From Halichondria panicea (lineage: Eukaryota > Porifera > Demospongiae > Suberitida > Halichondriidae), in NCBI RefSeq assembly GCF_963675165.1, contig NC_087389.1, forward strand, positions 2,514,001 to 2,578,000: a DNA stretch of 64,000 nt, read 5' to 3'. The notes under the pieces are model-generated. The model was not told where the DNA came from. It did not search any database and saw only the letters and a list, made by a program, of their open reading frames with translations. A program made the position numbers and the translations under genes. How positions within the stretch are numbered: position 1 is the first letter of the stretch; each line of letters starts with the position of its first letter. Positions 2,891 to 38,630 of this stretch are shown piece by piece.

Positions 2891-3379
2891 TTAACTGTTG
2901 ACTCTGGGTCAATAAGTTTCTTAAGATGGGAGTTGCCAGTTGTGCGATTACAGTGACCCCGTGACCCCGGGAAACTTCAAGGTTTTTAACGATTTAGCAG
3001 GCTGCTGGACCCAGACGATGCAAGACATCATCGCATTCATGCACAAAAAACCAGTTCATGAGGTAGGCACGCATGCATGCATCATCATAACAAATGCAAT
3101 AAGGTTTTAACCGTGGTGCGTACTGGTACTGGATGCAAAGTTGGTGGTATGGAAGTGGTTGCATTTCGCCCAGAGAAATTTGGTAATGACAGTCCTCATG
3201 CCATTACTGCAGCTCTGAAAAGTACGAAAGTACGAAACAGGGGGACTTTTTAGACGGCTAGACGGCACTATTATTCGTGGGGTCAACTCGTTAGGATGAT
3301 ATGTAATGTAGTACAGTCAACATCAGCAAGGTAAGGTAAGTGCATATTCCATATAGCAATTATACTGCCATGGACTGGA
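2891..3379. other. No recognisable feature
   Basis: Non-coding by eye. Short duplications include GTGACCCC twice near 2954, GTACGAAA twice near 3222 and AGACGGC twice near 3252. Confidence 0.3.
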
Positions 3380-3735
3380 TCCCTAGAAGGTCTCCCACCC
3401 CAAGACTGTCTCCCACCCAAGAAGATCTTTCACCCCTAGACGGTCGTCTCCCACTCCAAGAACAAGAAGATCTCCCCCACCCCTAGACGGTCTCCCACCC
3501 CAACCACATCGAACCCACCCCTAGACAGTCTCCCACCATGTCTCACACTCCAAGAAGATCTCCCACCCGATCCCACAAGACGGTCTCCCATCCCAAGACA
3601 GTCTCCCACCCCAAGACAGACTCCCCAAGACAGACTAAGAAGATCTAGACAGTCTCCCACTCAAAGAAGGCCCAAGACAGTCTCCCACCAGGCCAATCCC
3701 TACATGGTCTCCCTACATGGTCTCCCTACATGGTC
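3380..3735. repeat. CTCCCACCCCAAGA minisatellite
   Basis: A tandem field of variable units near the consensus GGTCTCCCACCCCAAGA, including a run of CTACATGGTCTCC repeats at about 3700-3740. The plus strand is pyrimidine-skewed, with about 15-25 loose copies. ORFs across it are low-complexity shadows. Confidence 0.7.
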
Positions 3736-4195
3736 TCCCACTCCAACTCCAAGAAGGTACCGCCTTCCGCCTTCACCAAAAAGGAGACAAACAACTAGAT
3801 CCACAGCAAAGGCGAAAGACTGGTCGAAACAACTGAGTTCAGCATACAATGAGAGTACAGTAAAGCTTATACTTTGTTCAGTTTGCCATGGGCGATCCTT
3901 GCGATCCTTGCTGCATGCTTTTGATTGAGCTCATCTATCATATTATTATTATTTGGGATGGAACAATAATCATGAAGTATAAATAATTATACATACTATA
4001 ATAAGAGTCCTAATGAACAAGAATCCTAATAATTATGCACAACAAGCAGTATGTGATTGTATAAAATAATGTAGATAACACTACACGTGTTATCTATTGT
4101 GGTATCATTGTAGTGTTTGTCGCTTACCATGCAAGACCTAGCAAGACCTAGAAGAAAGTGTATAAGTGAAAAATCCCTAACTAAGAAGTAAAGAG
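3736..4195. other. No recognisable gene
   Basis: Holds AT-rich sequence and short duplications (GCGATCCTT twice near 3892, CAAGACCTAG twice near 4132). A short open frame at 3704-3928 continues out of the minisatellite and looks like chance. Confidence 0.3.
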
Positions 4196-5035
4196 GACAC
4201 AGAGGACACATGCAGAGAACGCACAGCGAACACAGAAAAAGCAGAGGGACACAACAGGCACACACAGAGGATACAGGGGACACAACGGGCACAGCGGACA
4301 CAACAGAGGACACAACAGACACAGCAGGACACAACACAACACACACAACACACACAACACACACACAACACACACAACACAGAGGACTGCATGCAGAGAC
4401 ACAATGGACACAGCAGACACAGAGGACACAGCGAACACAGAGGACACAACAGACGCAGAGGATACACAGGGGACACAGCAGACACAATAGACACACAGAC
4501 ACACAGACACACAGACACACAGACACAATACACACAGGACACGAGACACATGCAGAGGACACAGCAAACACAGACAGACACAGAGGACACATCAGCAGAC
4601 ACTGCGGACAAAGTAAACTCATGCAGCAAACACAGCAGTCACACAGCAGTCACAGCGGTCACAGTGGACACAGAGAGACACAACAGACACAGTGGACACT
4701 GCAGTCACAGTGGACAGACTTGCACAGCGGACACAGTGGACACAGCAGTCACAGTAGACATGCACAGCAGATACAACAGACACAACGAGAGACACATGGA
4801 CACAGAGGACACAGAGAGACATGGACACAGAGAGTCAGAGAGACACAACGCAGACACAGACAGACACAGACAGACACCACAGACACAGCGGACACAGAGA
4901 GACACAGCGGACACAGCAGACACATCGGAGACAGAGAGACACGAGAGACAGAGAGACACGACAGACACAGAGAGACACCAGGAAACACAGTAAACACCAA
5001 TGGACACAGAGGACACATACGACATTTGAGACTGC
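4196..5035. repeat. ACACAG/GACACAGCAGACACA low-complexity satellite
   Basis: About 840 bases of degenerate short units (ACACAG, GGACACAGC, AGACACAGAG) with one strand almost free of T. All six frames are therefore open, producing Thr/His/Gln-rich frames on plus and Cys/Val/Leu-rich frames on minus, up to 279 residues long. None of these frames shows normal coding composition, so I read the tract as simple-sequence DNA and not as genes. Confidence 0.85.
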
Positions 5036-5578
5036 GCATGCACACCTGAATCAATACATAATTATAAATGTACAACCACACCCACTTTAGGGTTAATTAC
5101 ATTCTCTATTTGGATACACTTTACTCCTACCCATCAGGTGAATATATAATTTGTCACGATGTGCACACACAGCCGACACACAGCCGACTCATCAACAGAC
5201 AGACATGGACACAGAGAGTCAGAGAGTCACAACGCAGACACAGACAGACACAACAGACACAGACAGACACCACAGACACAGCGGACACAGAGAGACACCA
5301 CAGACACAGCGGACACAGCAGACACATCGGAGACAGAGAGACACGACAGACACAGAGAGACACCAAGGAAACACAGTAAACACCAATGGACACAGACACA
5401 GAGGACACATACAACATTTGAGACTGCGCATGCACACCTGAATCAATACATAATTATAAATGATAAATGTACAACCACACCCACTTTAGGGTTAATTACA
5501 TTCTCTATTTGGATACACTTTACTCCTACCCATCAGGTGAATATATAATTTGTCACGATGTGCACACACAGCCGACTC
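4821..5578 (+). repeat. Segment duplicated at about 0.39 kb spacing
   Basis: A block starting ATGGACACAGAGAGTCAGAG at 4821 recurs at about 5205. The unique tail TGTACAACCACACCCACTTTAGGG, TTTGGATACACTTTACTCC and TTTGTCACGATGTGCACACACAGCCGAC occurs at about 5068-5172 and again at about 5468-5575. The two copies differ by small indels in the ACACAG part. Confidence 0.8.
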
Positions 5579-27949: not shown

Positions 27950-28560
27950 TCTGAGCATGGCTGAAGGCAATGGAAGATATACCCCACAATTCCAGTTCCG
28001 AGATCAACTTTACATAGATGGCGTCATAGATGGCGTCAAAGCCAGATAGCTAGTGCAGATAGCTAGTGCAGGCACAACGGAAGTACCAATGGACCAAGAT
28101 GATCTTCTAAGTGATGAAGAGACAGCATGGGCAAAGCGATGATGAAGGCAAGCATGGGCGATGAAGGCAGCGTGGACAATCATGACAGCGAACTTGAGTA
28201 AGCTAGCATGTAAGCAAATGCTAGCTTTTTAATTATTCCATATGCAATTAATTATTCCTCTGATTGATTTGGACGAAGATGTGTTTACTCTACGAAAATG
28301 CAATGACATCAGCACTTAGTATGATAATGCAGTTTGTTTCAAGACACAAGTCAGTGACCTGTTGGCTTTGCTATGATTTGATTGATTTGTCCAAGTCCGA
28401 ATCATCTTCCAGACAGTACTTCCACAGTGGTTACAAAAAGAAAACTCTTTGCTCGGATTGTCTTGGACCCCTCACCAACAGCAGAGACAAATGCCCAGTA
28501 ATAGCACGCATGGCGAGCATGCGAGTTGGAAACTCGCAAAATTAAGTAAGATTATACACT
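27950..28560 (+). pseudogene. Degenerate open region, unrecognised
   Basis: From 27958 the plus strand reads MAEGNGRYTPQFQFRDQLY then breaks at duplications (TAGATGGCGTCA and AGATAGCTAGTGC). Further on, one frame gives LIDLDEDVFTLRKCNDIS and another gives YKKKTLCSDCLGPL, with Cys-x2-Cys pairs at 28360 and 28453. It may be a zinc-containing gene copy; no family is recognised. Confidence 0.25.
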
Positions 28561-28576
28561 GTACACTTACCCTATA

Positions 28577-28962
28577 GAGTAAGTAATCAAACCTCGGACT
28601 ATACCTATATTCGGACGCGTTTTCCATGGACTCAAAGCAGCTATCCAGATTTTAGCCACATCTACAAGTCACTGGTGCTTGGTACTACCTAGCAGCCAAC
28701 TCTCAGCCTGTTCCTCACAACGACACACTGGTCACGAGCTCTCAAAAACGAGTCCGAAATAATCAAAATACGGACGAAGGTACCGTTATCCGGACACTAC
28801 TTTAGACTGCGTAGCTTGAGATATTTCTAGTTTCTGTGCCTCCTGTACTTCTTCTTAGCTAGATCTACCATCATGCAAAAAATCAGCAGTGGCAGCTGCA
28901 CAACAAACTCCAGAAACCAGACTGAAAATAGCAGCCCCACCCACTAATTTAGGATCTCGGAC
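28577..28962 (+). repeat. Left terminal inverted repeat, 386 bases
   Basis: Starts GAGTAAGTAATCAAACCTCG and ends AGGATCTCGGAC. It is the reverse complement of 33576-33961; one difference was found (A in CAACGACACACTGG here, where the right copy implies G). Confidence 0.85.
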
Positions 28963-29215
28963 GCATGTGCATTGCATATAATTATAGGCAGATCTACACG
29001 TGTTAATGAGCTAGTCTATGCGAGAGTCTATGAGCTATTAGCCAAAAGTCTAAAAGAAAAACTCTCTACCTGAAGGACAAAATCAAAGGAGGGGCAGAGA
29101 ATCGGTGGATTTGTTTGTAAGTGCCACACTAGATCTACATACAGTAGACTATAACTAGAGTGTCTTTATGTGATGATTTTTTGTGTGTATACAGATTGTT
29201 AGTAATTAACTAGGT
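28963..29215 (+). promoter_or_regulatory. 5' leader of the transposase with possible UTR intron
   Basis: Between the left TIR and the ATG at 29216, a donor-like TTT/GTAAGTGCC (about 29117) and an acceptor-like GTATACAG (about 29193) could remove an intron of about 75 bases. No TATA box is evident. The promoter could equally lie in the TIR. Confidence 0.3.
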
Positions 29216-31189
29216 ATGGCTGAAGGCTATATTTTAAGAAGTAAGCTTGCATCACGTCCATCAACACCAGCAGTGTTTGACGGTAGATTTACTCACCAAC
29301 GACCGCTGTACAAGTCATGGGTGGATGACAGTATGAAAAAAGCTATGGAAGCAGTTGTCAAGAATGGAGCAAGTGTTAGAGAGGCAGCAGTTCGCTTTGG
29401 TGTGCCCAAGTCAACTTTGGGGGATCGAATCAGTGGCAGAGTTCAACACGGTGATGTCAGTGGCCCCCTAAAATACCTCTCAACTGCGGAAGAAAATGAC
29501 TTAGCCAAATTCTTGATAAAATGTGCTGGTATTGGATATCCTAAGACAAGATTAGAAGTTATATCTCTTGTCCAAACGATTATTGATTATAAAGGGATTC
29601 ACTCAACTGTTACGGCTGGTTGGTGGCAGAGATTTATCAAGCGAAATGCGAACATCACTTTAAGGGCCCCTTCTCCACTATCAAATGCTCGAGCATATGC
29701 AACAGATCCTGATATCATGAACAGGTACTTTGATCTACTTGAGGAGACTTTGTTCAGCCGTGCTGCATATTTAACATGGATGAAACTGGCCTCCCCATGG
29801 ATCCTAAGGCTTCTAAAAGCGTTTACAGAAAAGGAGAAAAAAATCCTTTAGCATGCTCTAGTGGTAATAAATCCCAGACGACAGTAGTAGCCTGTGTGAG
29901 TGCTGCAGGCTATTGTATGCCACCTTTGGTGATCTTGAATCGGAAGAGTGTTCCGAGCTGCTATAAGGAAGGAGAAGTTCCTGGGACCAAATATGGCCTG
30001 TCACCAAAAGGATGGATTGACCGTGACTTGTTTCACCAGTGGTTTGCTTTTCATTTTCTTCGATATGCTCCTCAAAAACGTCCCTTATTGCTGCTTCTTG
30101 ATGGCCACTCCAGCCACTTTTGCCCGGAAACAGTTCATCTAGCTGATGAACATGATATAGTTGTATTTATTTGTTCTCCCTCCAAACTCTACCCACCTAT
30201 TGCAGCCTTTGGATAAGGGGACATTTTCCCCTTTAAAGACTTATTGGAAACAGGAGTGTCACGAATTTATGAGCAAAAATCCAGGCGAAGTAGTGTCCCG
30301 TTTTACCTTTTCCAAAATTTTGGGAAGATCATGGGAAAGATGTATGAGATTATCCAATGTGCAAGCGGGATTTAAAGTAACCGGTGTGTACCCATTTGAT
30401 CGTGAAGCAGCTTTCAAGCAAATTAATATGCCTTCTGGTGTTGCCAAAAGTTTTTCTCTGCCGTATCAACCCATGTTTAGTCCTGCGCCCAGGAAAAAGA
30501 AAGCTGCAGCTATACATGTAGATCTAGTACGTTATTCAGAAGATGATGATATCAGCTCTGAAGAATCGTTCAGTGACGTACGAGCAGTACATACACCTGT
30601 AGGTGGCAGTTTTGATTATGAGAGTGCAGCACGAGAACCTGGTTTTGGTGAACATGCCAAGATGCCACCCTATACGTCTACTGGTGATACGGATGACAAC
30701 AGTTCCAGTGACACTGATCGTGTGACACCTTTAATTTACTGCAGCCAAGCCAAACCAAAAAAATGCTGAAAACACCCATCCCACCTCCAAGAAAAGTTGA
30801 TCCTTTGAAAGTAAAATCTTGTGGTAAAATTCTCACTAGCAGCGAATGTATGGCTATTATGGATAAAAAAAAAGAAGAGAAAGATGAAAAGGAAAGGCTT
30901 AAGGCTGAGAGAAAGCGTTTGCAGGCTGAGAGGAAGCAATTGAAGGCTGAAAACAAGCGTTTGCTGGCTGAAAAACGAGCTTCGAAGCTATTAGCCAAGA
31001 AATCGGGAAAGAGTGTTTCCACAAAAGTGTCTAAAGCTCAGCATTCCTTATGTGTTGAAAACCCACCTGAACCGGTTTTTACTGCTAAAGAACTTGAACT
31101 TTTTACCACCAGGTTTGAAAATGGTTTTGACCTCACGCATGATGACCGATATAACTTATGGTTAAAAGAAAATGGATCTCCCCAGAATG
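29216..31189 (+). pseudogene. pogo/Tigger-like transposase, three single-base frameshifts
   Basis: The N-terminus has a Psq-type HTH (residues about 36-75, NGASVREAAVRFGVPKSTL) and a CENP-B-like second HTH (85-150). The DDE core follows: MDETGLPMDP (first Asp, 29776), LLLLLDGHSSHF (second) and LLQPLDKGTFSPLK (third), so a DDD triad is present. Then come QAGFKVTGVYPFDREAA, an acidic tail, a Lys/Glu coiled coil (30868-30990) and FENGFDLTHDDRYNLWL. Breaks lie near 29755-29770 (with a few residues missing), at 30171-30180, and in an A7 run at 30757-30763. Otherwise it is intact. The homopolymer break could be a sequencing error. A donor at 31189/31190 joins it to the small exons. Confidence 0.8.
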
Positions 31190-31251
31190 GTGTGTATATA
31201 GTGTTTGGTATACTGCAGAATGTGCTATAATCATGTTTCTATTGTATTTAG

Positions 31252-31769
31252 CCAGGCAAAAGCGAGTTACGAAGCCTACTTTCAAAGTGAGAGAAAGCAT
31301 TGGTCAAGGTGGTTACTTCTGCTATTTAATACTGACATAGCTAATATCCATAATTGCAGATTGGAGTGATGCTGATGAGTTGTGCCACGTGACGGGGATA
31401 GATTCAAGTGGCGTATCTGGTGTGTTGATTATTGATTTAGCTATAATTATACAGCTACATAATTATGTTATATATACTTGGATAGCACTTGAATTGAATA
31501 GCCTGCAACATGTCCGCTTAACACGTCATAACTTTCGCTCAATTTGGCGATGCATGAGGCTATTTCTATTGAGCATAATTATAGTACTGCAGTCGACTAT
31601 ACTCGTGATTAATACATTTTCTAACAGATGAAGAGCCAGTCAAGTCCAAGGTACTGTCTGGTAAGTAGGTTTATTTTATAATTATATGCGACCAATTCGG
31701 ATGATGTGCCTTTAGTTGCAGAGCAAAGAAGGAACGCTGGAGTGAGGGCAACTAGAGCTAACCCATCTG
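31252..31769 (+). CDS. Four small phase-1 exons downstream of transposase
   Basis: AG..GT-bounded open exons lie at 31252-31308 (57 bases), 31360-31419 (60), 31628-31660 (33) and 31722-31769 (48). Each is a multiple of three, and each boundary leaves one G before GT, so every intron is phase 1 and the frame continues from the transposase. They read RQKRVTKPTFKVRESIGQ, WSDADELCHVTGIDSSGVS, EEPVKSKVLS and QRRNAGVRATRANPS. The last is the ancestor-like member of the following array. Function unknown; the sequence is basic and Ser/Thr-rich, possibly a tail of the transposase. Confidence 0.6.
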
Positions 31770-31899
31770 GTGAGTGAGTAAATTTAATTATCCCCCTTCA
31801 TATTAGGACCCACCCCCAAAGCAAATCTACCCCCCTGAAACAATTTAAGACTCTTAAAGGTAGCTCTGAACTCCGTCATATTCACATGTATATTATTAG

Positions 31900-33093
31900 G
31901 AAGCAGTGTTGGATTGAGAGCTACTAAATCTACTAGAGCTAACCCGTCAGGTTAGTGGCATATGTTGTACGTCGCATTCACATACACGTCTATTTTTAGA
32001 GCCCGTAAACAGTGTTGGAGTGAGAGCTACTAAATCTACTAGAGCTAACCCGCCAGGTTAGTGGTTCATGGTACCATAATTATGTTGTCGCATTCACATA
32101 CACGTCTATTTTAGAGCCCGTAAACAGTGTTGGAGTGAGAGCTACTAAATCTACTAGAGCTAACCCGCCAGGTTAGTGGTTCATGGTACCATAATTATGT
32201 TGTCGCATTCACATACACGTCTATTTTAGAGCCCGTAAACAGTGTTGGAGTGAGAGCTACTAAATCTACTAGAGCTAACCCGTCAGGTTAGTGGTTCATG
32301 GTACCATAATTATGTTGTCGCATTCACATACACGTCTATTTTAGAGCCCGTAAACAGTGTTGGAGTGAGAGCTACTAAATCTACTAGAGCTAACCCGTCA
32401 GGTTAGTGGTTCATGGTACCATAATTATGTTGTCGCATTCACATACACGTCTATTTTTAGAGCCCGTAAACAGTGTTGGAGTGAGAGCTACTAAATCTAC
32501 TAGAGCTAACCCGCCAGGTTAGTGGTTCATGGTACCATAATTATGTTGTCGCATTCACATACACGTCTATTTTTAGAGCCCGTAAACAGTGTTGGAGTGA
32601 GAGCTACTAAATCTACTAGAGCTAACCCGCCAGGTTAGTGGTTCATGGTACCATAATTATGTTGTTGCATTCACATACACGTCTATTTTTAGAGCCCGTA
32701 AACAGTGTTGGAGTGAGAGCTACTAAATCTACTAGAGCTAACCCGTCAGGTTAGTGGTTCATGGTACCATAATTATGTTGTCGCATTCACATACACGTCT
32801 ATTTTTAGAGCCCGTAAACAGTGTTGGAGTGAGAGCTACTAAATCTACTAGAGCTAACCCGCCAGGTTAGTGGTTCATGGTACCATAATTATGTTGTCGC
32901 ATTCACATACACGTCTATTTTTAGAGCCCGTAAACAGTGTTGGAGTGAGAGCTACTAAATCTACTAGAGCTAACCCGTCAGGTTAGTGGTTCATGGTACC
33001 ATCTGTTGTCGCATTCACATACATGTGTATTTTTTGGCCCAGGAAGCAATGTTGGAGTGAGAGCTATTAAATCTACTAGAGCTAACCCGTCAG
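31900..33093 (+). repeat. Tandem micro-exon array, eleven exon/intron units
   Basis: Exon starts are at 31900 (51 bases), 32000, 32115, 32230, 32345, 32461, 32577, 32693, 32809 and 32925 (57 bases each), and 33043 (51 bases). The period is 115-116 bases. Each 57-base exon reads EPVNSVGVRATKSTRANPS (last residue S or P), starting after TCTATTTTTAG or TCTATTTTAG and ending before GTTAGTGG. All are open, divisible by three and bounded by phase-1 introns of 58-59 bases. Base changes between units are few (CCGTCAG versus CCGCCAG, T-run length), so the array expanded recently. If spliced, it would add about 200 residues of basic repeats to the transposase C-terminus. Confidence 0.7.
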
Positions 33094-33170
33094 GTTAGTG
33101 GTTTAATAGTACCGTATTGAAATTGGTAAAGAGCCCACCCAAGTGTGCTGTACATTTCTGGTTCATATAT

Positions 33171-33260
33171 AGTCAAGTTCCTAAATGACAATGTCACTAT
33201 ATATGCATGTTACTCGTCTCAATTAACGTCATGTACAAACGCAATAAAAAGAAATAGTGG
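33171..33260 (+). CDS. Candidate terminal exon with polyadenylation signal
   Basis: CATATATAG is followed by an open phase-compatible exon reading VKFLNDNVTIYACYSS up to TAG near 33256. AATAAA lies at 33243-33248. Alternatively the reading would end at once if the last intron were retained (GGT TAG). Placement is inference. Confidence 0.35.
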
Positions 33261-33561
33261 TTAGGGAGTTCCATGTATTTACCCTGTAGTGCTCGAGGAC
33301 GATTCTTTTTGTTCTGCTACTGATTGCTCTGTACAAAAGAGCGGGATAGAGTTCCCTGTGTGGATCAGTTGTGATGTGTGCTCCAGGTGGTATCATCTTT
33401 ACTGTATAGGACTGAAGAAAACCAAGAAACAGTTTACTTGTGTACAATGTATATAATGAACAGTAAGCTTGTGTAGATCTATATTCAATGTGTATAGTTG
33501 TGATTAAATACAGTATACTACCTTTCTGGGCTCTGGTAGAGATCGATTTTCTTTTAACCAT
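33229..33561 (-). CDS. Small antisense ORF beside right TIR
   Basis: A 110-residue frame starts at an ATG only 15 bases inside the right TIR and runs toward the array. It begins MVKRKSISTRAQK and contains PPGAHITTDPHRELYPALLY and RTKRIVLEHYR. A donor-like AAAG/GTAGTATAC near 33524 and acceptor-like TTTTCTTCAG or TATACAG near 33410 suggest a short intron in the same frame. No family is recognised. It would converge on the transposase transcript, so it could be a second transposon gene. Confidence 0.35.
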   Translation of the reverse strand: MVKRKSISTRAQKGSILYLITTIHIEYRSTQAYCSLYTLYTSKLFLGFLQSYTVKMIPPGAHITTDPHRELYPALLYRAISSRTKRIVLEHYRVNTWNSLTTISFYCVCT

Positions 33562-33575
33562 TAAGTGAACTCTGT

Positions 33576-33961
33576 GTCCGAGATCCTAAATTAGTGGGTG
33601 GGGCTGCTATTTTCAGTCTGGTTTCTGGAGTTTGTTGTGCAGCTGCCACTGCTGATTTTTTGCATGATGGTAGATCTAGCTAAGAAGAAGTACAGGAGGC
33701 ACAGAAACTAGAAATATCTCAAGCTACGCAGTCTAAAGTAGTGTCCGGATAACGGTACCTTCGTCCGTATTTTGATTATTTCGGACTCGTTTTTGAGAGC
33801 TCGTGACCAGTGCGTCGTTGTGAGGAACAGGCTGAGAGTTGGCTGCTAGGTAGTACCAAGCACCAGTGACTTGTAGATGTGGCTAAAATCTGGATAGCTG
33901 CTTTGAGTCCATGGAAAACGCGTCCGAATATAGGTATAGTCCGAGGTTTGATTACTTACTC
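33576..33961 (-). repeat. Right terminal inverted repeat, 386 bases
   Basis: Starts GTCCGAGATCCT on plus and ends GATTACTTACTC, followed by TA. Same length as the left arm. Confidence 0.85.
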
Positions 33962-34044
33962 TACTTAAATTTCTATAAGCGAGCATAATTCCATAAAAAA
34001 TTGTAGCATAAGCATAATCAGATCAGGTTTCTCATACACCGAAC

Positions 34045-34400
34045 ATTTGGCTCTCTCCATTAACACAGATGGTTCTTCCGAGCTTTTGGCCAGTGTACCT
34101 CGTTATTAACAATCTCCCACCACATATCCGAATGAACGAGGAAAACATTATCTTGTGTGCTGTTTGGTGTGGCTCAAAAAAACCGGCCATGCATCCGCTG
34201 CTTAAACCCATTAATCCGTAAAATTGGTATTGAAATGTTAACACCGGCTGCGGCTGGTAAAAAAGTCTTTACCAAAGCTGCCATCTTGAGTATGAAGCAA
34301 TTTAATGGATCGATAGTGCGGCCCTTGCTAGCAGTCTAAATAAGGCCGAGAAGCCTTTTATCTCGGACGGTATGTTAAGGAGAAGATTTGTTGAATCAAA
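34045..34400 (+). pseudogene. CACTA (EnSpm-like) transposase fragment
   Basis: Frames give INTDGSS, then FWPVYLVINNLPPHIRMNEE, ILCAVWCGSKKPAMHPLLKP, and further AAILSMKQFNG. This is the order seen in tnp2-like transposases of animal CACTA elements (TDG..WPV.L.I..LP...R..N..L..W.G..KP...L..P...KQFNG). The frame shifts three or more times, and no zinc knuckle or element ends are seen. It lies just outside the pogo-like element and is older. Confidence 0.55.
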
Positions 34401-35086
34401 AACCCCCACACGAGTTCAGTCGCTCTCCTCGGTCACTATCAGCTCATCTCAAGTTACACTCTCTATTACTCCTATTACTCCCTTCCACTTCTCCTGCACC
34501 ATTACGCACTCTTTGTTGCAGTAAAGCAATTCATTTCCTTCTCCAATCATCTCAGAAGAACTACTGAAGGACTATGTACAGTTTCTCTATGGTGAAAGAA
34601 GCTGAAATTCACATGCACATGCACTAACTCACATTCCCAAATTTATACAACACTGGGGGACTCATCAGCACTCAAAAACATGATTCATGGAAAGTGCCAT
34701 AGCTGGTATTTGCTGCCATGACGACAAGCAAATGTGAAGACAGTGACACCATCGATTTCATCACAACCAAGAAACCCCGAGGCAAAGATGGGTGAACATC
34801 TCTACAAAATAGGACGATCCAGTGTCACCGAAGAAGAGTCGGTACTCAACACGTTAACACCTTCAGTCGTGCCTTTTCCTTTTATAATGGGGTGGTTTAC
34901 TATTCACGGGACAAACGTGACAGCACTGTCTGTACCTACAGTAACTCTCGTGGAAAACCAAGCTTTTGTCGAATCGAAAAGGAACCATTGTCCGAAAATT
35001 GACATGAAATCCTTGTCGAGAACTCTAAACTCTAAACTTGTACAAGCATGTAGACCATGTCACTCATTAAGCATTATTAAGCATTA
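34401..35086. other. Unrecognised sequence, one open frame
   Basis: A 118-residue plus frame (34734-35090) contains EEESVLNTLTPSVVPFPFIM and ends at the piggyBac-like insertion. It is not recognised and may continue the CACTA remnant. Confidence 0.25.
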
Positions 35087-35090
35087 TTAA

Positions 35091-35991
35091 CCCTTTCCCG
35101 GCTTTAATTAAAAAAACAAAATACAGAATAAATACACATTTTTCTTTAAAAATACATATCTCATGAACCATGCATTGTAATCACTTGCAACTATTTCCTA
35201 CAGGTAGCCCATATCCTGGGGGTACCATGACATCATCATCGTTACCTAGCAACTGACCACCCCCCACTAATTAACGATTTTTTTACACATTTCACAATTA
35301 TGAACATAAACAATATTGTATGAAGGCATTAAGTAACTAAAGACACTAAATAAGTGTTCTCAATGTTCTCACGGTGACATGGTTCAATCAGGATCAGCAG
35401 AAACTTCTCTGCGAGGTCGTATCGGCAGACGCTCTTTTCCCGGGAAATGTTTTCTTCACCTACACACAGGTTTACAAGTTCAATGGTGGCTCATGATGTC
35501 CACTTGTGTACTAACTAGACTAAGCATACCATACTGAAGCTATCCAGACTACATATGATACTCCATAGTTACTTACAAGGTCCAGGACTTTGGTTCATGC
35601 TCAGGAGCTTCTTCCACCGGTTCTTCAGGCTCTATATTTATAGCTTGACCTCTGAAAAGTAGTTTCCTCTCTTGGTATGATCCCAGTCACTGTCCTCTTA
35701 CTCAACAAGGCCATAAGCATCGTTATTCTCACTGTCTAGCTGCCCTAGAACCTCGCTGAGGTTGTACTACAAAGATCTTGTAGCCATTATCAAACGGTCA
35801 CTTTTCTTTCGACAGTACTGCACCAAGCGTACCTCGAGGCAAGATATTAAAGATACCATGTGAAAGAGCAGCCCAATGCGCATGTGCTGGTACCTACAGC
35901 GTGTGCATAGCTCCAACACAGTGCCCACAACCATGTTTTGAAAATTATCACTACCGTTGCCGTCATATGACGGCTAAAGCCGGGAAAGGGT
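35091..35991 (-). mobile_element. piggyBac-like non-autonomous element, copy 4, complete
   Basis: TTAA at 35087-35090 and 35992-35995 flank ends CCCTTTCCCGGCTTTA and its inverse TAAAGCCGGGAAAGGG. The subterminal palindrome GCCGTCATATGACGGC is at about 35961. It is homologous throughout to copies 1-3 in the opposite orientation to copy 1. No catalytic domain. It is the best-preserved member here. Confidence 0.8.
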
Positions 35992-35995
35992 TAAA

Positions 35996-38630
35996 CTGAC
36001 TGTGTTAGTCAAGACAAACCAGCATTCTGACAACCAAACAATTTTGAGAGATTTGTTCTATTATTGTTCTATTATTGTTTACATACTGCTATAATAATTA
36101 GCAGCCACATCTACAACTCAATCTATAATAATAAGAGACATGGCTGCTTCATGCCAATTTAATTGAGACAACAATTCAAGATGCAGATCTTCATTTCTAA
36201 CAATTATTTCTAACAATTATTTGATTTGATTATAGGTCCTTGAGGTTGAGGCTGATGGGGAATACCTCTTTATCCTGGTTCTCTTTGATGACGAAAGTGT
36301 GCAATTTATTAGATACGTAGAACTAATAGTGTATCAGTTTGTTCACGGAAAAACATAATTTATATGCAAGTAGAATCATTATCTAGTGTCAGATTGCAAT
36401 CAGTGCAATCAGATTATTCACTTAAACTCACTTAAACCAACAAGACATATCTGACATTATAGCTGGTTTGAATTTTGTCAGATTGCAATTGGAATATTCA
36501 CAGAATCTGATATCCTGAAACTTGGCTAGTCAGACTTTTGTTGGAGATTTTGCACACAGACACTGATCAGGATCAATCTGACACCATCTGAACAGAACTG
36601 ACGAAATTCTTACAAGAATTTTTAGTTGGGTACCTGGCAAGGAATTCTCACAACCCACTGTCTGTACATAACAATACTGCATGCACTTTGACCTTTGTTT
36701 AAGAACAAAAAACGGGTACGTACCCTTTTTCTTGGCGCGACATTGCTTGTGACATTATCATGTACATGTACGTCTGAGTCGGATGTACATAACAATACTG
36801 CATGAACCTTTGACCCTACTTCAGAACATACCCGACATGCGACCAAGCACTCTTGCACCTTGCATGACATCATTGTCTGAGTCTGATCCAGATCCACTGT
36901 ATGATACTGTGTACCTTAGTTCACACCTTAGTTCACACCACACACACCCTTCTTCCCGGTAGACCCGCATTTTACCTGCATGAAAAACAAATGCACAATC
37001 TTAATACAGATGCAGGCAAGCACACCATTTGTTTTCTGGAGATTCTTCAGCCCTTCTTTTTCTTTGTAGTGCTTTTCCTTTTTCCTTCATCTATTTCATC
37101 TCCACTTATCATCGAAAAATTAGACTTTGGCAATATATATTATGTTGGGTAGAATTAGAGTAAAGTCGTGGCTGTTTGTTTATGTCTACTAAATCTAATG
37201 GAGTTTGTACTTTCGTTTCTTTCGCTTAAATTGTGATGTCTCGTCTATTCGTGTCTCTTGGCGTCATCATTATTTTTCTCCACCCCTAGAGAAAAAGGTG
37301 ATTAAAATGTTATCTCTTTACACTCTTTACACTCGAACTGTCCCACTAAACATTTCCGTATTTTGAAATAAAGTGAGGGAAGTGAAAGACCAGTGTGTGC
37401 ATATAGGGCGTAATATTCTTTTCCTGAAACCCTTGACACTTGTGCTTCAAGCTCAAGAAAAGGTCTTTCGCCTATCATGACCTACTAGTAAACTAACACT
37501 ATACCTTTTGCTCAACCACTTCACTGGGAGGTGGAGTCCAGCTAGAAACCATTGAGCCAGACCATATAAATAATTTAGTACTCACTTGAATTTCTTCCTT
37601 CAGTAGGTCAGCAAACTAGACGTTCCAGAAACGTCCATTCGAAATGTCCTGAAGCCCTGAAGCTTTGCCATCTGGACCCCTTGCTCGTCTGTAGTGTTTG
37701 TAGGTGAGTGTGCGTTTCCTAGTCTGTCGTTTCCTTGTCTGTCTTGTTTAGCAGATCTCTAGAATGAGATTTCTTGTTAAAACGTCAGCTATACGTAGGA
37801 GTAGGTGTAGCTCATCGCTCTATGCAGTAGTGGTGTTGTAATTGATGTAATTGATCCTAGTCGTTTACTGCTGGGAAGTGCGCGCCTTTTTATACATTCT
37901 CTTGCCAGGAAAAACTCAAGGCGGTACTCTGTTTCATCAACAGTGAGTAGTGGGTGTGAAATAATGTCGTTCAACTCCTTCAATACCTCAGATAGTCCTG
38001 AACTAATTGTTTCATACAATTGTTTCATACGACTCTTCGCCTGTCAATATAAAAATATTTTCACCACTTTCTCGTTTAATATTTTTATTGTTAAGCTTAC
38101 CCATGCCTGATAAAACATTGTCTTGAATTTCTGGAAATGCAAATGAGATATTGAATGATCTTGTGACCATTACTTTTACTGGTTGGGTGATAGCTTTCCC
38201 TGAATGAACCCATAATAATAGTTCTAGCTAGGGATTGCAGCTTTCGGATAAGGACCTTCGAGATATCGGATGTCGAGAGAGTTGTTAATTGAGAGTAATT
38301 TCGGTACAGTGGAGACACTCAATTCATGATAAGCTTCGTCACTCACAGCAAACCTGTCAAGAGCTTGCTGTACCCTCGCAGAATCGTTTTGATGTTGTGG
38401 CTTGTATGGGAGATCTGCGTAGCTCTAAAGATTCTGGCTGGCTCCTCCATACGCTCAACCTACACAGAGAGCATGAAAGACTTGCCACACAACATAGCTA
38501 GCTACTCATCTGTGTGTATGCTGTTACAACAGTGGCTCCTCCACACTCAATCAACCTACCTACACGGAAGACACATGAAAGACACACTACACTGCTAAAC
38601 AAGCTATGGCTGAAGACCGAATGATTCACA
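35996..38630. other. Mostly intergenic
   Basis: A possible plus exon after an AG at 36234 reads VLEVEADGEYLFILVLFDDE. A segment beginning GTACATAACAATACTGCATG recurs at 36653 and 36785, about 130 bases apart. A minus frame at 37789-38028 reads LSEVLKELNDIISHPLLTVD and could be an exon. None is recognised. Confidence 0.25.

Follow-up and report, generated by a model that had tools for sequence, protein, structure and literature searches.

A candidate array of small symmetric exons between the transposase and the PHD finger of a pogo-like transposon from Halichondria panicea

The window, that is, the whole stretch of 64,000 nucleotides of sponge DNA that was analysed, derives from a genome of 131 Mb in 39 contigs and contains a pogo-like transposon in which a row of small, largely near-identical exon-like segments lies between the main transposase exon and an exon encoding a PHD finger. 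With moderate confidence, we regard this row as a real exon array of an autonomous-type transposon, the exons of which are most likely spliced together to give a basic linker, variable in length, that separates the transposase from the PHD finger. The transposase pre-mRNA would comprise the main exon, the small phase-1 exons and the terminal PHD-finger exon, in that order, and its product would carry a basic linker, prone to disorder and variable in length, that joins the catalytic core to a probable chromatin-reading finger. Since every linker exon is symmetric, the PHD finger would stay in frame when a unit is gained, lost or skipped. As each tiny exon has its own intron and keeps the reading frame, the length of the tail would be adjustable, and the element is probably able to lengthen or shorten its own transposase in this way.

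Anatomy of the element and its exon chain

The transposon that encloses the array is approximately 5.4 kb long and is bounded by 391-bp inverted repeats, which are 99% complementary, with a flanking TA at both ends. The features of the window copy are as follows.

28575..28965, + strand: left terminal inverted repeat, 391 nt, 99% complementary to 33573-33963; it begins with the flanking TA
29216..31189, + strand: main transposase exon with HTH_psq and DDE_1 (Pfam on separate pieces; in this copy the frame is broken at three places)
31252..31308, + strand: linker exon e2, 57 nt, phase 1
31360..31419, + strand: linker exon e3, 60 nt, phase 1
31628..31660, + strand: linker exon e4, 33 nt, phase 1
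31722..31769, + strand: array exon e5, 48 nt, the oldest member, EQRRNAGVRATRANPS
31900..31950, + strand: array exon e6, 51 nt, GSSVGLRATKSTRANPS
32000..32981, + strand: nine near-identical 57-nt exons, EPVNSVGVRATKSTRANP-S/P, with introns of 58 or 59 nt
33043..33093, + strand: last array exon, 51 nt, GSNVGVRAIKSTRANPS
33290..33456, + strand: terminal exon, 167 nt, phase-1 entry, encoding the PHD finger and containing the stop codon
33573..33963, - strand: right terminal inverted repeat; the flanking TA is included as its last two bases

The disruptions of the transposase frame in the window copy (C13) are frame switches. The frame is uninterrupted in a second genomic copy (C14), and an uninterrupted protein from another source (P0001) is 99% identical to the transposase of the element. 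In the C14 transposase the DDE_1 domain scores 79.5 bits (Pfam cut-off 22) and HTH_psq 34.1 bits, likewise above its cut-off; the spacing of the catalytic triad, measured on the same copy, is DD35D. In the Pfam search on separate pieces of the window copy, HTH_Tnp_Tc5 stays below its cut-off (14.7 vs 22.2). On these sequence features, i.e., a DDE_1 domain with a DDxD triad, an N-terminal helix-turn-helix, terminal inverted repeats and TA, the element is of the pogo superfamily type, in line with the initial annotation, which had placed the array inside a pogo-like DNA transposon. TA is found at both ends of C13 and C14; the right end of a third copy, C16, was missed by the exact end pattern. 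The right inverted repeat of C14 (C14:3352669-3353580) is split by approximately 510 bp of other DNA. Repeat positions 116-125 are present on each side of this DNA, a pattern suggestive of a nested insertion that duplicated 10 bp.

The main exon, which ends in phase 1 at 31189, is followed by 15 linker exons of 33-60 nt, all of them symmetric in phase 1, and by the exon for the PHD finger (27.7 bits against a Pfam cut-off of 24), with no internal stop. Twelve of the linker exons form the array proper (31722-33093), in which every exon-like segment is preceded by AG, followed by GT, divisible by three, in phase 1 and free of stops, and the nine 57-nt exons run from 32000-32056 to 32925-32981. 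The number, sizes, borders and phase of these twelve exons had been described correctly from the letters of the DNA, and so had the nature of the repeated unit as exon plus intron. Tandem Repeats Finder gives a period of 116, 9.8 copies and 97% matches. The introns of the entire chain measure, in order, 62, 51, 208, 61, 130, 49, three times 58, five times 59, 61 and 196 nt. Within the array they are 130, 49, 58, 58, 58, five times 59 and 61 nt, so that the range of 58-60 bases given in the initial annotation applies to the units with 58- and 59-nt introns and not to those of 130, 49 and 61 nt. That annotation had contained neither the PHD exon 3' of the array, nor the inclusion of e2-e4 in the phase-1 chain, nor the separate arrays in relatives described below.

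Under the exon model the linker and PHD finger together amount to 326 residues in C13 and 231 in C14, without internal stops. Eleven unit peptides have net charges of 0 to +6, lack aromatic residues and consist for 75-90% of residues from the disorder-prone set.

Other tandem sequences are present in the window. At 4273-5576 lies a long imperfect ACAGA-type repeat with a higher-order period of 399 bp (2.0 copies, 90% matches; Tandem Repeats Finder). Across the window there are also 129 perfect duplications in which two copies of a 10-18-nt unit adjoin, with peaks at 13 and 17 (29 at 17, 1 at 18); three order-3 Markov sequences contained none of at least 10 nt, and another count gave 127 vs 0-1. 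These duplications are fewest at approximately 28000-36000 and are regionally clustered, with 9 in the 10 kb of L017, 0 in the 10 kb of L019 and 56 in a further set of loci that overlap in part and cover 190 kb; they also occur in L062-L065. They look like a regional mutation signature.

Copies of the element and the reading frame of the units

The genome contains at least three copies of the element, copy counts being lower bounds, and these carry 12 (C13, the window), 7 (C14) and 33 (C16) array exons. Upstream of the array they differ by 12 (C13/C14), 25 (C13/C16) and 20 (C14/C16) mismatches over alignments of 3,212 to 3,251 columns, in which gaps take up 32 to 86 positions, and only three distinct sequences account for all 37 intact 57-nt exons in the three copies. 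From this small number of mismatches (12-25) and of distinct exon sequences it follows that the change in unit number is young. A recent expansion had been proposed from the window sequence, together with a comparison of unit number among genomic copies; the near-identity of the units and the differing counts in closely similar copies agree with it. The units would multiply as DNA repeats of exon plus intron, probably via slippage or unequal exchange, and gap repair after excision perhaps aids the process.

The initial annotation also offered a host exon, captured by the element and amplified afterwards, as the origin of the array. No points in favour of such a capture were found; a DNA-level search of the genome with the array matched only the element's own copies (at least three), and the diverged e5 shows that the exon family is already old inside the element, which makes this origin very improbable.

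Frame-breaking exons in related copies had been named as evidence against the array being spliced. Downstream of e6 there are none in C14 (0/5) or C13 (0/10), and 7 of 31 exons in C16 are out of frame, five of these 7 having one altered acceptor in common that has itself been amplified. C16 is also the copy in which the transposase frame is broken too. The objection is thus upheld for C16, a copy with a broken transposase as well, and not for C14. Between its 51-nt exon and its first 57-nt exon, C14 has an intron of 34 nt, which may be unfit for splicing.

Among homologous units of the non-degraded copies, 10 of 11 indels in exons are multiples of three, against 4 of 16 in introns (p 0.001); the exon borders for this count were set by hand with symmetry in mind, which biases it toward the exon side. 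The sole non-triplet exon indel, of 2 nt, occurs in one exon of the related lineage L060. The count omits C16, the C8 relics L062-L065, the 121-bp unit of L057, the 130-nt intron after e5 and the last, partial units of L060. A second coding signal comes from the comparison of e5 with the repeat core, in which 4 of 4 changes are synonymous (p 0.007) over the alignable core of 11 codons, the first codons of e5 being unalignable. Purifying selection was looked for among the young units and was absent there, with amino acid changes at 2 of 2 variable codons in the window's own family (family 1) and at 7 of 9 in a related one (family 2). The introns of young units vary no more than their exons, and seven introns of L066 are identical. 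It seems from these sequence comparisons that the frame is guarded and the peptide of new units is not, a combination that would fit a linker in which length and composition outweigh sequence, and equally a tolerant tail.

The serious rival to a spliced linker is a neutral minisatellite, with one real ancestral linker exon to which slippage has added inconsequential units that are skipped, or tolerated by a disordered tail. We consider it rather unlikely on the whole. It gains from the amino acid changes among young units, from the lack of excess variation in their introns and from the amplification of frame-breaking units in C16; the triplet indels of the exons and the absence of any broken unit from C14, the copy with an uninterrupted transposase frame, speak against it.

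Chance expectation and recurrence in relatives

Dinucleotide-shuffled versions of the 116-bp unit equalled the real score, obtained by searching one repeat unit for a symmetric exon in phase 1 flanked by good splice sites, in 5 of 1000 cases. For units of relatives the same shuffle test gave 11/1000 (L066), 4/1000 (L049), 30/1000 (L060) and, for two units of L057, 94/1000 and 10/1000; five unit-shuffle results combined yield p 6e-6. When a splice model was applied to the whole region, 4 of the 198 shuffled arrays scored (200 were made) equalled the real score, and 44 of the 198 still gave at least eight identical symmetric exons. The latter number counts against the array being exons and is in accord with neutral growth of a minisatellite. 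Since shuffling reproduces the look of the array this often, a single array is moderate evidence, and it is the recurrence in relatives that carries weight. A pure chance pattern was rejected as a full account, shuffled units seldom equalling the real score and relatives showing the same design.

At a penalty of 8, one of three penalties applied, a generic splice-site model that is blind to the repeat recovered precisely the 15 linker exons of C13; at penalties of 4 and 6 it retained 11 of the 12 array exons, swapped out e5 and inserted extra exons. For C14 at penalty 8 the model omitted e6, the following intron being shorter than its 40-nt minimum. Chains predicted for L049 and F2 matched the manual exons only in part, included non-triplet exons (3/9 in L049, 5/18 and 5/17 in F2) and were excluded as proof. 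Three other arrays of the window, which served as controls, yielded symmetric exons in 0 of 3 cases on the + strand and in 2 of 3 on the minus strand, with scores of 9.3 and 10.1 vs 15.0 for the array described here.

A protein search of the source genome with the N-terminal part of the transposase gave 57 matches, and the downstream DNA was read for eight lineages. Duplicated phase-1 exons are present in seven of these eight, with sequences that are unrelated between lineages, a recurrence that argues against a neutral origin of the window's array. In family 2 a 90-nt exon lies in a unit of approximately 146 bp, with 8 exon-pattern matches in L066, 3 in L067 and 5 in L050. L049 has a two-exon unit in three copies, and F2, itself represented by five near-identical copies, contains an older three-exon module twice, approximately 86% alike, with GRPKK motifs that we take to resemble AT-hooks. 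In L057 and L060 the arrays lie downstream of a region with a Ulp1-like protease and a PHD finger, and in L058 a duplicated exon lies upstream of such a region. In L059 no array was found by eye or by repeat scan, and no PHD finger by eye. One exon of the family 2 array in L050 contains a mobile sequence of approximately 780 bp (about 3242-4020 of the reverse strand), of which dozens of similar copies exist in the genome (241 first-look candidates, 40 scored).

The PHD finger exceeds the Pfam cut-off in the window, L049 and F2. In L057 both the PHD and the Ulp1-like protease matches fall just below their cut-offs, in L058 and L060 these regions were recognised by eye only, and L051, a relic of family 2, was matched when the genome was searched with the window's PHD exon. 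With arrays before the PHD finger in some lineages and after it in L057 and L060, the position of the array relative to the finger varies, and its location 3' of the finger in the latter two counts against the linker reading. A match of 49% identity to transposase residues 82-181 was also observed at G000:C17:5546901-5547200 (-), within an open frame of 2255 aa that is possibly a host gene or a fusion.

In two listings of the best 120 protein matches, the entries named by organism all belong to another demosponge, Amphimedon queenslandica. One of its proteins, P0038 (LOC109590340, labelled isoform X7, 23 member sequences), resembles the element described here: it is a transposase with HTH_psq and DDE_1 domains, and nine tandem repeats of 16 residues directly follow its conserved YNLWL motif. 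It differs in that its repeat unit, VDETLTGRTTVGRGKK, is unrelated in sequence, the repeats being described here at the protein level. This isoform has no Pfam match to PHD, which counts against a linker that leads to a PHD finger, and a search for other isoforms with residues 560-811 returned only the protein itself. In P0123, from an 815-kb contig, two exon-plus-intron-like units are read through, each with a stretch ending in RGKKG and then the same intron-like stretch; it was apparently predicted without splicing. P0005, P0013 and P0164 have basic tandem repeats inside an open frame instead, from which expansion of the tail appears to be a common event in the clade.

That the Amphimedon isoform terminates in its repeats, with no PHD match, is also what a splicing switch would produce. 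Under such a switch a retained array intron halts translation, and more units lead to more truncated, PHD-less transposase. The transposase of the P element is controlled by intron retention, which offers a parallel, and retention of an array intron would bring in a stop within one or two codons in both C13 and C14; retained introns, however, commonly bring early stops, and a switch of this kind seems improbable. For the reading as spliced linker exons, the anatomy, the phase, the recent change in unit number, the recurrence in relatives and the mostly triplet-sized exon indels are observed; splicing, translation of the repeats, the linker role and the mode of expansion are inferred.

Comparison with known systems

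Tandem exon arrays are known from host genes. A literature search, with small coverage of subscription papers, found no report of an exon array that expands within a transposase gene or transposon. As a tentative generalisation, which at present appears possible and not probable, the sponge elements may form a pogo-like clade with expandable splice modules, in which frame-neutral arrays of exon plus intron vary between young copies and thereby rewrite the length and charge of the transposase tail, lineages re-invent such arrays from unrelated sequences, and host genes could receive ready-made symmetric exons from the arrays. If this is confirmed, a comparison of young copies within a single genome would allow the birth and growth of exon arrays to be traced, unit number, frame and linker composition being open to measurement, and a parasite gene would be seen to alter the length of its protein via intron-bearing repeats.

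The element shares with the pogo superfamily (IS630-Tc1-mariner; Tigger and relatives), as outlined in the available text of PMC7386202, the DDE_1 domain, DD35D, TA ends, terminal inverted repeats and a helix-turn-helix. It departs from that outline in its spliced-looking C-terminal exon array and PHD finger. In a term search, the main text of this survey contained none of the words PHD, intron, psq and accessory, and the available text of a second pogo survey (PMC7325037) contained none of PHD, exon and psq. For Ulp1 and PHD on a transposase the precedent is Ginger1, on the available text of PMC2836005, where the transposase has a C-terminal Ulp1, a PHD in one tabulated family and a few GT-AG introns. 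Unlike the window element, Ginger1 has a Gypsy-integrase-like transposase with 0-4 introns, and the word 'tandem' is absent from the main text of that paper. SmTRC1, a CACTA transposon of Schistosoma mansoni, is similar in having alternatively spliced transcripts and a tandem-repeat region; it belongs to another superfamily, and the accessible part of its description (PMC1636069) does not present the tandem repeats as exons.

The nearest functional parallel, by analogy and on the available text of PMC4350168 and PMC8293314, would be the micro-exon genes of schistosomes, in which small symmetric exons likewise stand in rows and can be skipped in frame. Their micro-exons are mostly shorter, 36 bp or less, according to the accessible text of PMC8293314. 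The array described here does not belong to that class of genes, as it is part of a transposase gene and not of a host gene that encodes a secreted or membrane protein. In the schistosome systems, as far as these texts describe them, the exons reside in such host genes, whereas in the sponge element near-identical tandem units occur in the gene of a transposase.
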